Below, in pieces: positions 13,808 through 50,936 of a DNA stretch of 64,000 nucleotides. The DNA is from Sanguibacter keddieii DSM 10542. GTDB taxonomy: Bacteria; Actinomycetota; Actinomycetes; Actinomycetales; Cellulomonadaceae. Under the pieces are notes generated by a model. It saw only the letters and a program-made list of their open reading frames with translations, was not told where the DNA came from and searched no databases. Location: assembly GCF_000024925.1 (NCBI RefSeq), contig NC_013521.1, positions 682,001 to 746,000 on the forward strand, given 5' to 3'. The position numbers were made by a program, and so were the translations under genes. Every line of letters begins with the position of its first letter. The first letter of the stretch is position 1.

Positions 13808-15178
13808 ATGCCTCAGATCGACCCCCGAGAAGCCGCGACGGTCCTGGCCCGAGGCCTCGGACGGCGGGACTTCCTGCGCGCGGCCGCCGCCGTCGGTGCG
13901 GGCGGTGCCGTGGCCGGTGCTCTCGCCGCGTGCGCCCCCGGCTCGTCGGCGTCCACGCCCCGCCCCACCACGACCCCGGCGCAGCGCGGGATCCTGCAGC
14001 CCGGCGCGGGCGACGTCACCGGGGACCACTACCTCGGCTCGACGCCCGACGACGTGCTGTGGGGCTACGTCCCGACCGTGCACTCCTCGCCCGTGGCCCG
14101 GATGCGGTCCGGGCAGACCATCACCATCGACGCCGTCTCGCACGAGGGGATCCTCGAGGACCAGGGCCGCGACCCGGTGAGCTACTTCGCCCAGCACGGC
14201 ATCGCGTCGTCGGACGTGCTCGAGGACGCGATCTCGATCGCCGCCGAGTACGACCGCACCCCGCGCGACTTCGTCACCGACGGCCCGCACGTGGTCACTG
14301 GCCCGGTGCACGTCGACGGGGCCGAGCCGGGCGACGTCCTCAAGATCGAGACGCTCGAGGCGATCCCGCGCGTCCCCTACGGCGTCGTGTCGAGCCGGCA
14401 CGGCAAGGGCGCGCTCGCGCTCACCGCAGACGGCACCCCGCCGGCGGGCATCACCCTCGACGAGGTCATGCCGCCCGTCGCGACCGACGGTCGTGAGTCC
14501 GACGACCCCGAGTCCTTCGGCAACATCTCGACCTTCACCGCGGTCGACGGCGACGACGGCGTCATGACCTTCGGGTCGGGCGACAGTGCCGGGACGGTCC
14601 GGTTCCCGCTCCGGCCGTTCATGGGGATGATGGGCGTCGCCTTCTCCCAGGACACCGACCCCACGGCACCGAGCGCCAACTCGATCCCGCCCACCCTCGG
14701 CGGCGGCAACATCGACATCCGCCAGCTCGGCGTGGGCTCCACCTTCTACCTGCCGGTCGCGGCCGACGGCGCGCTGTTCTACGTGGGCGACCCGCACATG
14801 GCGATGGGCGACGGCGAGGTCGCGCTCACCGCGATGGAGGGCTCGCTGCGCGGCACCTTCCGGCTCACGGTCTGCAAGCCCGGGTCCGGTGACGCACCCT
14901 CGGTCGCCTACGGCTACCCCTTCGCGGAGACCGACGACGCGTGGATCCCGATCGGGCTGTCCGACCCGGACGGGGCGGTCGACGGGCAGGTGAGCGACCT
15001 CGACGTCGCCATGCGCCGCGCGGTGGTCAACGCCCTCGACTTCCTCGAGCACGACCGCGGCATGGACCGGGCGACCGCCTACGCCTACCTGTCCGCAGCC
15101 GCCGACTTCACGGTCACGCAGGTGGTCGACCGCACCGTCGGCGTCCACGGCCTCATCTCGAAGTCCCACTTCGGGTAG
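13808..15178 (+). CDS. Exported acetamidase/formamidase family protein (Tat signal)
   Basis: 456 residues. The N-terminus has a twin-arginine signal GRRDFLRAAAAVG followed by a lipobox-like ALAAC, so the protein is exported folded and possibly lipid-anchored. The body matches the FmdA/AmdA family: SGQTITIDAVSHEG, a GPVHVDGAEPGDVLKIE stretch, PFMGMMGVAF, GGNIDIRQL, LPVAADGALFYVGDPHMAMGDGEV (metal His/Asp). Family enzymes hydrolyse formamide or acetamide to ammonia, but many periplasmic members have unknown substrates. ATG 13808 has GGAGG with good spacing. The Tat export of a normally cytosolic family is notable. Confidence 0.85.
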   Translation: MPQIDPREAATVLARGLGRRDFLRAAAAVGAGGAVAGALAACAPGSSASTPRPTTTPAQRGILQPGAGDVTGDHYLGSTPDDVLWGYVPTVHSSPVARMRSGQTITIDAVSHEGILEDQGRDPVSYFAQHGIASSDVLEDAISIAAEYDRTPRDFVTDGPHVVTGPVHVDGAEPGDVLKIETLEAIPRVPYGVVSSRHGKGALALTADGTPPAGITLDEVMPPVATDGRESDDPESFGNISTFTAVDGDDGVMTFGSGDSAGTVRFPLRPFMGMMGVAFSQDTDPTAPSANSIPPTLGGGNIDIRQLGVGSTFYLPVAADGALFYVGDPHMAMGDGEVALTAMEGSLRGTFRLTVCKPGSGDAPSVAYGYPFAETDDAWIPIGLSDPDGAVDGQVSDLDVAMRRAVVNALDFLEHDRGMDRATAYAYLSAAADFTVTQVVDRTVGVHGLISKSHFG

Positions 15179-15199
15179 TCCGGGACGCCCGCAGGCTCG

Positions 15200-15328
15200 T
15201 CACGACCCGATCGACACCATCCCGGCGGCGAGCCCGTCGAGCCTGTCGCCGCACCTCTTGCAGAGGGTGCGGGTGGCCGTCTTCACCGGGGTGCCGGTGA
15301 TCTTCGAGTCGCACTGGTCGCATCGCAT
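15200..15328 (-). CDS. Small zinc-ribbon protein, copy 1 (short)
   Basis: 42 residues starting MRCDQCDSK. Two CxxC pairs (RCDQCD and LCKRCGD) separated by about 16 residues predict a single zinc ribbon. It is almost identical over its first 36 codons to the gene at 15568-15792 but stops early, lacking the charged C-terminal tail. At DNA level about 100 bases at the start differ at only two positions, so this is a recent tandem duplicate or a truncated copy. The start is shared with copy 2. There is no strong ribosome binding site (GTGG 5 bases upstream). Function unknown. Confidence 0.6.
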   Translation of the reverse strand: MRCDQCDSKITGTPVKTATRTLCKRCGDRLDGLAAGMVSIGS

Positions 15329-15393
15329 GCAGCCACGGTAGCGGGAGGGTCGGGGCGGGTGCACCGGCCACGGGATCGTCTGCCCGCACCGGC

Positions 15394-15538
15394 GAGGTCG
15401 CACCGTGGTTCACGAGGTCGCACGATCGCAGACGAGGTCGCACTGACACGCCGAGTCCCGGCCGCTCCGCCGGACACCTGGCGTGTCTCTGCGACCTCGG
15501 TGTCAGGGGTGCGACCTGGGCGGTAGACGTGCGACCTG
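15394..15538. repeat. Symmetric 20-bp-period repeat array, copy 1
   Basis: Three copies of GAGGTCGCAC start at 15394, 15414 and 15434, exactly 20 bp apart. Their inverted counterparts (KTGCGACCTS type) end-match at 15489, 15509 and 15529, also 20 bp apart. All three pairs share one symmetry axis at 15466. Inside lies GACACGCC (15445-15452) with its complement GGCGTGTC (15480-15487). The same layout recurs at 50792-50936. It lies between two zinc-ribbon genes. It is not a CRISPR array, since units are 10 bp and no cas genes are nearby. Confidence 0.9.
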
Positions 15539-15567
15539 GCTGGCTGGGGTGAGGTTCGTGGAGGACG

Positions 15568-15792
15568 TCAGGTTGAGGAACCCGACGTGCGCTTCTTCTC
15601 GCGGGCCTCGCGTCGCTTCTCGCGCAGGGAGCTGTACCAGCCAGCGGTCGCGATCGCCTCGCCGACGCCGCCGCCTGACATCACCCCGGCGGTGAGCCCG
15701 TCGAGCCTGTCGCCGCACTTCTTGCAGAGGGTGCGGGTGGCGGTCTTCACCGGGGTGCCGGTGATCTTCGAGTCGCACTGGTCGCATCGCAT
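15568..15792 (-). CDS. Small zinc-ribbon protein, copy 2 (long)
   Basis: 74 residues. The N-terminal zinc ribbon has CDQC and LCKKCG pairs, followed by a small Gly-rich link (SGGGVGEA) and a basic helix YSSLREKRREAREKK. The Cys pattern and basic tail suggest a nucleic-acid- or protein-binding role. No named family is recognised. It is the fuller paralogue of the gene at 15200-15328, and the repeat array separates the two. It is followed downstream by that array, which could terminate its transcript. Confidence 0.65.
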   Translation of the reverse strand: MRCDQCDSKITGTPVKTATRTLCKKCGDRLDGLTAGVMSGGGVGEAIATAGWYSSLREKRREAREKKRTSGSST

Positions 15793-15862
15793 GCCACCAC
15801 CGTAGTGACACCAGCGGCGGCAGGTCGGGTGATCTGTCGAGAGACTCGCCTACTCTCGTGCC

Positions 15863-16564
15863 ATGTCGTCAGGGGAGGACGCCGACGGGCGTCGGTCGGT
15901 GCAGCCGTCAGGTCGCCTTCCTGTCGTGCTGTCGGAGCGCGAGCTCGCCACGAGAGGGCGCCGCCGGGACCGCTGGTGGCTCGTCGGCCTGGGGGCCTGG
16001 TGCGGGGCCGTCGTCTGGTGCTGGGGCGTGACGGTCGGCCGGGCGCGGACCGTGGCCCGGGTGGACGACACCTGGGTCATGTGGTGGCACCTCGCGCCGG
16101 TGCTCGCGCTCCTGGGAGCCATGTGCCTGGGCGTCGCGGCAGCTCTCTCGCTGCGGACCGGCGCACTGCGCAGGGCAGAGCTGCGGGTCCTGCCGCGCAG
16201 CCGCCGCCGGACGGGCCGGACCGTGGCGACCGTGGCCGGTGCTGCCCTGCTGACGGTGACGCTCGCAGTCGTCGCGTCTCTCCAGGGCGAGACTGTCGTC
16301 ACGGTGCTCGGTCCCTCGAGCCCGGGCGGGTGCACCGTCGTGGTCGAGGAGTCACGCGGGCTCATGAGCGGCAGCGGCAGGGTCGGGGTCCTCGGCGAGG
16401 GTGGCTGGGTCCCGGACTGGCAGGGGACGTACGGCTCGGACGACGGGTACCGCCCGTTCACCGACGGCGGGTACGAGCTGACGTGGCGCGGTGCCGAGGC
16501 CGACGTGGCCCTGGTCGACCCGAGCCAGCCCACCGGACCTCAGGCCTGGCGCGTCTCCTGCTGA
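15863..16564 (+). CDS. Hypothetical membrane protein
   Basis: 233 residues with three predicted membrane helices: LVGLGAWCGAVVWCWGVTV (about 40-58), LAPVLALLGAMCLGVAAAL (about 77-96) and VATVAGAALLTVTLAVVASL (about 120-140). An extracellular C-terminal domain follows with two cysteines (GGCTVVVEES near 153 and the last residue) that could form a disulfide. The cytosolic N-terminus is Arg-rich. The coding frame has consistent G/C third positions, supporting a real gene. No family is recognised. It ends 18 bases before the convergent ROK repressor gene. Confidence 0.7.
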   Translation: MSSGEDADGRRSVQPSGRLPVVLSERELATRGRRRDRWWLVGLGAWCGAVVWCWGVTVGRARTVARVDDTWVMWWHLAPVLALLGAMCLGVAAALSLRTGALRRAELRVLPRSRRRTGRTVATVAGAALLTVTLAVVASLQGETVVTVLGPSSPGGCTVVVEESRGLMSGSGRVGVLGEGGWVPDWQGTYGSDDGYRPFTDGGYELTWRGAEADVALVDPSQPTGPQAWRVSC

Positions 16565-50200: not shown

Positions 50201-50701
50201 CGCATCAGCCCCGTGGGGCAGTTCGGCCGCCTGGACCACAGCGCACCGCGTCAGCGCAACTGCTTCTACTCGTCCTCCGACGCCGGCTTCACCGACCGGT
50301 ACGACTTCGCCGAGAACTTCGGCAAGCTCCGTGACGGGTCCGTCCCGGTCAAGGGTGGGTGGCGCGTGTACTCCTCGGGCCCCGGCATCTACCTGCGCCA
50401 GCTGGTGCACGGTGCGCTGGGCATCACCGAGCGTGCGGGCGGCGTGGTCTTCGACCCGGTGCTCGCGGCCGAGGACGACGGCACGGAGCTCGGCATCGAC
50501 CTGGCCGGCGTGCACCGCCGGGTGACCCTGCACGTGGTGGCCGGCGACGCCCCGGTCCGCGTCGAGGTCGGCGGCGTGACCGTCGAGGGCTCCGAGGTCC
50601 CCGCGCACTACCGCTCGGGCGGTCTCTTCGTCGCCACCGAGCAGCTCACGGGCGACGTCGACGTCTACGTCGGCCTCGACCGCAGCACGCTGGGAGCCTG
50701 A
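47264..50701 (+). CDS. GH94 phosphorylase, probably 1,2-beta-oligoglucan phosphorylase type
   Basis: 1145 residues, much longer than cellobiose phosphorylase (about 800) and near the size of 1,2-beta-oligoglucan phosphorylases. Two N-terminal beta-sandwich regions span about 1-600. The (alpha/alpha)6 barrel carries GAAWGTRDVCQGPLELN, QWFMFDAYSERYSDEAHGDVVVWPL and GEGDWDDTLQP (catalytic general-acid Asp), EMASAWTVALLFQ and FPVKGGWRVYSSGPGIY-like VKGGWRVYSSGPG. No signal peptide: it acts inside the cell, using phosphate to release glucose 1-phosphate from imported glucan. GTG 47264 has GAGGG 9 bases upstream. It follows a family 5 ABC importer. Exact linkage specificity is inference. Confidence 0.85.
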   Translation: MNSSPAHPSASSAAVLTTPSSPSAPVDQVLQAGPTRIALSATGDVRSIRHGESTLVSQYSPSDHDAMVGGVFLRRHSAHGVQSAPLVGAHASGTSTVSDGVARWAGEALGARYVVTLALDPAGDLWVWRVDLESTDGTGGTYDVVVAQDLALAPEGMSLSSEPYVSQYLVHHVVDGSGAGSVLASRQTMATAPVLPLAVSAIVEGARAHLTDGFSLYGLDSKLDGHAHALDTAAWDSLVYQYELAMPTLLGPELDLSEPRTVHAVTAFVPDYRGDLDDALDAVPDMLGRAVAAAASAGDPGAHSTADASTAPRSLLVSAPLLAGRDLTEDELVSLGAGSVFQPERAADGSLLSYFTADATHVVSRAKELAVERPHGHVVKARTDVAPEDNILSSTSYVYGVFASHVVVGNTSVNRFVSVQRNHLNLLRSSGVRALVQVDGTWQLLGVPSALVMDLGGLRWVYETPVGRIEVRTTASADDRALEVRVDSENPVELLVTVDVELGDHAWTAEPALDGRALVFTADAGTDVAAHCPDLTYVLGSSTGRIGDDSVLFADGAPRRTGVVTVAFDATTSASVVLTGDLEGRAPALAAAEKTLGSALDVPAELAAHRRYVGDFTRNLHVEGSGRLAEVNLLLPWFTQNALIHFLVPHGLEQYSGAAWGTRDVCQGPLELNLAFGRFDTAREIVLRVFGHQDADGTLPQWFMFDAYSERYSDEAHGDVVVWPLMALGEYLSATGDTSVLDVELPFWDNATRQAGTEAVPVLEHVRASLEYIRTHRAPGTQLLSYGEGDWDDTLQPAQESMKEEMASAWTVALLFQATSTLSALLRGGAHDALADELQAEADVIAAEFTDRLMIDDVLAGYVVFAPEGPWPVIHPTDDRTGLQYRLIPMTRSIIAGLFTPEQVLRHEALVEDNLHFPDGVRLMDRPAPFQDGITKYFRRGEQAANVGREIGLMYTHAHVRYTQALATLGRERLVTELLRISPVGQFGRLDHSAPRQRNCFYSSSDAGFTDRYDFAENFGKLRDGSVPVKGGWRVYSSGPGIYLRQLVHGALGITERAGGVVFDPVLAAEDDGTELGIDLAGVHRRVTLHVVAGDAPVRVEVGGVTVEGSEVPAHYRSGGLFVATEQLTGDVDVYVGLDRSTLGA

Positions 50702-50751
50702 CGCCTGACGCCTGACGCCTGACGCCTGACGCCTGACGCCTGACGCCTGAC
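50696..50751. repeat. Heptamer tandem repeat (GCCTGAC)8 overlapping the GH94 stop
   Basis: Eight exact copies of GCCTGAC from 50696 to 50751. The TGA stop of the GH94 gene lies in the first unit, so changes in copy number would not alter the protein. Likely length-variable by slippage. Confidence 0.95.
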
Positions 50752-50791
50752 GCAAGAGCGGCGCCTGACCCACAGCACCACCTGACCCCGC

Positions 50792-50936
50792 GAGGTCGTA
50801 CTGCAGCCCGCGAGGTCGTACAGCAGCCCGCGAGGTCGTGCAGACACGCCAGATCGGTCCCCTGGAGGGGCGGATCTGGCGTGTCTGTACGACCTGGGCA
50901 GCGGGTGTGCGACCTCGGCGGGGTGCGTGCCGCAGC
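50792..50936. repeat. Symmetric 20-bp-period repeat array, copy 2
   Basis: GAGGTCGTAC-type decamers start at 50792, 50812 and 50832 (20 bp apart). Inverted copies GTACGACCTG (50887) and GTGCGACCTC (50907) follow, and a decayed third lies at 50927. All share the axis 50864. A central 13-bp stem GACACGCCAGATC (50843-50855) pairs with 50873-50885. Every distance equals that of the array at 15394-15538. It lies between the convergent GH94 and isomerase genes, in a 325-base gap that also holds the heptamer repeat and a terminator. Confidence 0.9.

Follow-up and report, generated by a model that had tools for sequence, protein, structure and literature searches.

Arrays of mirrored decamers at gene ends in Sanguibacter keddieii and its relatives look like putative binding platforms

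Introduction

What is the role of ten-base-pair words that are repeated at a fixed step and mirrored about one axis beside the end of a gene? This question is raised by a locus in the chromosome of Sanguibacter keddieii, an actinobacterium first isolated from cattle blood. The locus belongs to the window, i.e., the whole stretch of 64,000 nucleotides that was analysed, and a preliminary description, based on the letters of the sequence, proposed for it either a protein-binding array or an RNA with a long periodic hairpin. The genome of strain ST-74T, a single contig in this analysis, has 4,253,413 bp according to the available part of its publication (PMC3035225).

Arrays in the Window and in the Genome

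The first array, site 1, occupies positions 15394–15538 of the window. As found by both direct reading and a script, the word GAGGTCGCAC stands three times on the forward strand at 20-bp steps, at 15394–15403 (level 3, the outermost), 15414–15423 (level 2) and 15434–15443 (level 1, the innermost). The inverted partners, located by script on the reverse strand, are CTGCGACCTC at 15489–15498 (level 1) and GTGCGACCTG at 15509–15518 (level 2) and 15529–15538 (level 3), each one mismatch off the perfect inverse. One base inside the innermost decamers lies an 8-bp stem, GACACGCC at 15445–15452 (+) and GGCGTGTC at 15480–15487 (−), enclosing a 27-bp loop (15453–15479) that has little sequence conservation in the comparison of sites; the stem and all three decamer pairs share the axis 15466. 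This arrangement, including the central stem, is as given in the preliminary description, with the addition of the single mismatches. Between the array and the stop codon of a gene at 15568–15792 (−) there are 29 bp, and on the other side a gene start lies at a distance of 65 bp. Two copies of a gene of a small CxxC...CxxC protein flank the array (15200–15328 and 15568–15792, −); their products of 42 and 74 amino acids are identical in the first 24 residues, and a 129-bp repeat at 94% is located around the site at 15213–15341 and 15677–15805.

Site 2, at 50.8 kb, consists of 3 + 2 decamers. The left ones begin at 50792, 50812 and 50832 with 20-bp steps (50792–50841, +), the 43-bp core at 50843–50885 is formed by GACACGCC, a 27-bp loop and GGCGTGTC, and the right decamers begin at 50887 and 50907 (50887–50916, −). 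The surrounding genes are convergent and end at 50701 (+) and 51027 (−). Another repeat, 8.3 perfect copies of GCCTGAC at 50696–50753, overlaps and then follows a stop codon, 38 bp before site 2.

Single near-words are common in the window, where GAGGTCGYRC with at most one mismatch gives 114 matches vs 68 expected. The exact word GAGGTCGYAC is confined to the two arrays, so a chance origin of these arrays is excluded; scattered words of the DNA-uptake type were rejected on the same ground.

The preliminary description had also proposed a search of the whole genome for spaced GAGGTCGYRC pairs, and this preset test gave 20 matches for pairs 8–12 bp apart and 0 for a reversed-pattern control, i.e., the arrangement is not limited to the two copies in the window. 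The combination GACACGCC..GGCGTGTC was found in 15 places genome-wide and in none in the control. One of these places has no decamers; it is a perfect 44-bp palindrome with GACACGCC and GGCGTGTC as its ends (L015, G000:C1:227660–227703; G-numbers denote genomes, G000 being the S. keddieii genome of the window, and L-numbers denote loci), and it was excluded before counts were made. A covariance model derived from 15 sites led to 20 sites in the S. keddieii genome, including 5 new to the model, and the matches just past them have E values of 0.53 and 0.94. The conserved words of the family are CGAGGTCGYAC and GACACGCC.

The geometry was studied in 38 sites from two species, namely 19 of the 20 in G000 and 19 of the 37 in a congener, G019, with steps of 18–22 bp allowed and the four orthologous site pairs counted in both species. 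L025 was omitted from the step counts, and both L025 and L029 from the covariation counts. The step from decamer to decamer is exactly 20 bp in 136 of 149 cases; for the first step in each arm (75 of 76) this follows in part from the search model, and for the further steps, from the second decamer outward, which are free in the model, the figure is 61 of 73. The loop has 27 bp in 34 of 37 sites. Pairwise identity in 37 sites reaches 0.79–0.91 in decamers and about 0.95 in the stem, in comparison with 0.335 and 0.376 in the two spacers, which is near-random (0.30 and 0.32 are expected from composition), and 0.40 in the loop (0.27 expected). Thus, the spacers keep their length and lose their sequence similarity.

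The arms consist of 2–7 directly repeated decamers pointing inward to the stem (by eye, more in one G019 locus), and the sites measured, with at least two decamers per arm around the stem, span 103–105 bp or more; the matches of the covariance model extend over 103–105 positions. Matches of at least 8/10 to the decamer occur in 76/76 arm positions at level 1 and 74/76 at level 2, a constancy that is partly ascertainment because these levels belong to the search model. From level 3 to level 7 the counts are 37, 11, 5, 3 and 1 of 74–76 positions, and half-step controls gave 0; in other words, conservation drops outward. The arms may be unequal in the number of units, e.g., 3 + 6 or 7 + 4. One arm of the stem is displaced 9 bp further in at L025 and L029, and the spacing between the decamers is still 55 bp, as judged by eye. 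The long arrays in the right flanks of L047 and L060 adjoin, by eye, a GC-rich hairpin containing CGCGAGGTC, as if a terminator and an array had merged.

Occurrence in Related Bacteria

Matches were found in 24 of 121 genomes of the family to which the species belongs, S. keddieii included. A permissive rerun on 13 genomes gave 37 sites in G019, matches in each of the eight carriers to which named loci had led, and no site in the congeners G040, G070 and G082; the congener G056 has one weak match (E 0.005). The element is therefore dispensable in the genus, three of the five congeners having no site and a fourth only this weak match.

Arrays with a short centre, which are present in other Micrococcales, were sought by a pattern scan of one genome each of 84,980 species. 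The scan gave 44 stretches in 14 genomes belonging to Actinotalea, Isoptericola, Cellulosimicrobium, Pseudactinotalea, Microbacterium, Cellulomonas and one Actinomyces, counts that represent a lower bound because the pattern fixes certain spellings. With steps of 18–21 bp and centres of 12–29 bp allowed, 62 short-loop sites were found, 59 of them distinct. A 19-18-19 layout (66 bp) is characteristic of 41 of these 59, while sites of Isoptericola and Cellulosimicrobium mostly show steps of 20–21 bp and a centre of 17 or 26–27 bp. The suggestion that a 20-bp period places all sites on one face of the helix is not supported, since 20 bp corresponds to roughly 1.9 helical turns, the step in related genera is 19 bp, and the distance across the centre also varies by genus, being 53–55, 26–27 or 17–18 bp (15 in one site). 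In one locus (L038, G013:C2) two short arrays at 1520–1585 and 1661–1726 are about 75 bp apart; to judge by their arms, which resemble one another in inverted orientation, this may be a case of element duplication.

The spelling of the decamer, GAGGTCGCAC, GAGATCGCAC, GAGGTAGTAC or GAGGTAGAAC, differs between genera and within one genome, and separate GAGATCGCAC, GAGGTCGCAC and GAGGTAGCAC sites are present in the genome of Pseudactinotalea suaedae. This variety is not simply explained by one protein.

Position Relative to Genes

The place of the sites relative to genes, a point raised in the preliminary description, proved to be at gene ends. Genes were predicted by a home-made caller, and both neighbours were called for 36 sites, of which 22 are convergent, 13 co-directional and 1 divergent; in 3 more sites one neighbour lies beyond the stretch examined. 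Convergent surroundings are thus seen in 22/36 sites, in comparison with 24/203 of the remaining junctions of these loci (Fisher p 8.6e-10; L015 was left out of the background). In 11 of the 13 co-directional cases, site 1 included, the array is nearer to the stop codon of the upstream gene.

Among the proteins encoded by 58 of the 75 flanking genes, no Pfam family matches more than 3/58; the most shared models, ABC_tran, AAA and SMC_N, have 3/58 each (in the first 25 of 163 families). A dedicated neighbour gene was rejected on this basis.

Folding and Pairing

The main rival to a binding array is an RNA element. In transcripts of either strand the 3' end of the mRNA would form a long hairpin and serve as a bidirectional terminator or 3'-end stabiliser, the decamers being important by pairing. 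We consider this explanation somewhat unlikely, and the position of the arrays at the 3' ends of genes agrees with it. So do the very stable folds, from −33.8 to −90.6 kcal/mol over 38 sites, in which the innermost decamers are paired in 37 of 38 cases, and the absence of any other perfect stem of at least 8 bp from 17 of the 22 convergent regions that carry an array. Such separate stems are present in 5/22 of these regions and 8/23 of the others, with no difference between the two groups. On the other hand, L045 keeps its decamers and does not form the hairpin when folded, the unequal numbers of units in the arms do not favour pairing, and no T-run terminator was found at site 1 (15100–15900). 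Beside the array of the L024 locus there is a separate terminator-like hairpin, visible by eye in G000, G019, G056, G082 and G040; in G056 and G082 the array itself is absent, and G040 has a different palindrome there, so that this hairpin occurs without the array too.

The preliminary description had recommended a search for covariation between the arms. Such covariation was confirmed for the innermost decamers, whose position 8 (C/T) agrees in 33/37 pairs vs 18.5 in shuffled data (p = 0.0016 and 0.037 within the two species), but not for the outer decamers, which vary at the same position without covariation (24 pairs vs 23.6), or for the Sanguibacter spacers. The single base between decamer and stem gives a weak signal, 25/37 pairs with G-U included vs 20.0 (p 0.018). 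In spacers, loop and outer decamers of the 37 Sanguibacter sites no convincing complementarity beyond shuffles was observed; two variable columns, among many tested, reach p 0.03–0.04. The alignment of 15 sites shows 88.8% paired cells vs 89.7% after shuffling, i.e., no excess, and its RNAalifold covariation term of +0.13 gives the hairpin no support. Hence, there is some reason to regard the centre as symmetric or paired, and little reason to regard the arms so.

In the short-loop relatives part of the evidence favours the RNA hairpin. Spacers of the 41 sites with the 19-18-19 layout are complementary in 258/369 positions (70%) vs 160 under free shuffling, an excess mostly explained by species consensus; nevertheless, shuffling within genomes (36 of the 41 distinct sites) still gives 227/324 vs 204, p 0.0018. 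This complementarity speaks for pairing there and is the best evidence against the array reading. The two halves of these loops are complementary in 89/164 positions vs 81.1 (p 0.057), without clear excess. Differences between the four decamers of a site at a given position were counted in 92 cases, in 67 of which one word alone deviates, and the rest comprise 11 mirror-symmetric, 8 arm-wise, 3 crossed and 3 other cases; the mirror, arm and cross patterns in the 59 sites (11, 8, 3; p 0.11) stand against pairing.

Evolution and Comparison with Known Elements

According to the available parts of PMC3733652 and PMC2817692, REP/BIME elements are palindromes dispersed over intergenic regions, chiefly those of convergent or co-directional genes; they are often arranged as inverted units with regular spacing, and binding of proteins to them was reported. 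REPs have 20–40 bp, GTAG- or CGTC-tags and an IS200/IS605-related transposase, and usually more than 100 copies, with cases from 37 perfect copies (PMC2817692, available part). The arrays resemble them in being dispersed, intergenic and downstream of genes, whereas they differ in size (at least 103–105 bp vs a 20–40-bp unit) and in their composition as arrays of units with near-random spacers; their copy numbers are 20 and 37 sites. In the search of Rfam 15 with 15100–15900, no match exceeded the curated score, and six of the seven sub-threshold matches (best E 0.096) are microRNA models. Y1 (IS200/IS605-like) transposase, PF01797, was found in 0/11 genomes (S. keddieii, G019, G040 and the eight carriers), while the control search gave matches in 5/14 known genomes. 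Membership in the REP/RAYT system was rejected for this reason and for the wrong unit size. The best reading is that these are dispersed REP/BIME-like intergenic palindromes of a new variant and not members of REPs; they sit like REP/BIME elements and may work like them.

Long intergenic palindromes of the ERIC and YPAL types, obscure in origin, are also situated at gene ends, but their consensus is conserved in full length, whereas conservation of the arrays is limited to decamers and stem. Iteron arrays and parC-type centromere repeats consist of direct repeats at fixed steps, can be extended by units and are bound by a small DNA-binding protein. The arrays share with them the blocks of direct repeats, the fixed steps and the extension by whole units; however, iterons and parC-type repeats are found at a single locus next to the gene for their binding protein, and the arrays are scattered, with no recurring neighbour family among the 58 flanking proteins. 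With intrinsic bidirectional terminators they share a stable hairpin between convergent genes, differing in the lack of a T-run at site 1, in the same words repeated throughout the genome and in unequal arms. Unlike in CRISPR, the repeats have 10 bp and are inverted about a centre, and the available part of the S. keddieii genome paper gives 0 CRISPR repeats (PMC3035225). A published description of the arrays was not found in open full text, subscription literature being outside the scope of this search, and is absent from the available parts of PMC3035225, PMC3733652, PMC1590033 and PMC2817692. Full-text matches to the decamer spellings, among those listed, have titles that look unrelated.

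The arrays might also be selfish REP-, ERIC- or MITE-like palindromes, spread by some enzyme and kept mostly by chance, their place at 3' ends resulting from avoidance of promoters and genes. This is, in our opinion, quite unlikely. The patchy distribution across the genus is in agreement with it, as is the comparison of 19 G019 loci (of 37 sites) with G000 loci, in which only four were orthologous on both flanks (six site pairs were aligned). At these four sites, however, decamers and stem are 0.80–0.97 identical vs 0.53–0.58 in spacers and 0.28 in loops (two pairs; the other two differ in length), a contrast that neutral decay would not give. Whole units were gained or lost between the species, six right decamers in L047 and two in L022. 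The loops of L049/L016 and L061/L024, identical in 15/54 positions, are like random sequence, while the flanking DNA aligns at about 75–86%; at orthologous sites the turnover of loop and spacers may be unusually rapid. The L031 locus is uninformative due to loss of synteny between the genomes.

The recent-copy test, restricted to 34 sites with a 27-bp loop, also speaks against selfish spread, since the similarity of spacer and loop sequences does not exceed the null in any pair (28/45 in the best pair with both orientations, 27 in the same orientation; one-orientation null maxima average 27.1) and no recent copies are visible. To this may be added the absence of Y1 transposase and of any match in plasmids, searched with site 1, or phages, searched with site 2; a plasmid- or phage-borne element was rejected accordingly. 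Conservation that falls outward, partly by construction at levels 1 and 2, is the opposite of that expected for transposon termini, and transposon ends or a MITE were rejected on this ground together with the lack of visible near-identical recent copies. A point in favour of selfish origin is that one congener, G040, contains a separate family of 64-bp palindromes, GAGTGCGGTC..GGCTGCC..GGCAGCC..GACCGCACTC, found by exact pattern in 11 places (L133–L142), one of them at the intergenic spot of an S. keddieii array. Paired changes in the stems of these palindromes are visible by eye.

A chromosome-scale organiser like parS, matS or Noc sites, intergenic by accident, is highly improbable: the distance to the origin (dnaA at 584–1069) is below 1 Mb for 16/20 S. 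keddieii sites (KS p 0.011 for origin distance), but this bias was examined after the fact and is one-armed, with 14/20 sites on the right chromosome arm, and the arrays are absent or nearly absent in four congeners.

Proposed Function

The preliminary description named the right pair of alternatives. The Sanguibacter data lean to the array, and the covariation of the innermost decamers and the complementarity in short-loop relatives keep the RNA hairpin under consideration. We tentatively prefer, at a little less than even chances, to regard the arrays as double-stranded binding arrays for a predicted protein acting at the ends of transcription units. Fixed steps with free spacers favour a cooperative array on double-stranded DNA, and so do the outer words, which are conserved without covariation, whereas an RNA hairpin would predict paired arms. 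Unequal and extensible arms, as well as the spacing of decamers that stays constant when the stem has moved, point in the same direction. The covariation of the innermost decamers counts against the binding array, as a hairpin would give it, and the patchy distribution in the genus and the lack of a recurrent flanking family must also be counted against it.

According to this binding-array reading, the decamers are most likely putative binding sites of a sequence-specific protein. The candidate protein would fill the double-stranded array from both sides, and its footprint would set the fixed steps. In this way a symmetric block of DNA and protein would form at the 3' ends of genes, in most cases between two that converge, and it would act alike on RNA polymerase or supercoils coming from either side. 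The family, its geometry, the conservation of decamers as opposed to spacers and the location at gene ends are observed directly; the protein, its occupancy of the arrays and the boundary function are what we infer from the sequences. A wider proposal, that the arrays constitute a class of gene-end boundary elements in Micrococcales, symmetric, extensible and double-stranded, with a dedicated reader protein and a word changing between lineages, which mark and insulate convergent ends of transcription units, is unlikely at present.

Conclusions

Summarizing the data considered, it may be concluded that the arrays look like an undescribed family of putative binding platforms where genes end. Conserved decamers stand in contrast to turned-over spacers at the orthologous loci, and this difference can be tested directly. 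Even if selfish, the arrays would represent a class of dispersed repeats without the known REP transposase. If a protein reads them, the 20 and 37 sites in two species, along with the changed words in several genera, would be natural replicates, and the arrays would provide a handle on how actinobacteria separate convergent transcription units.
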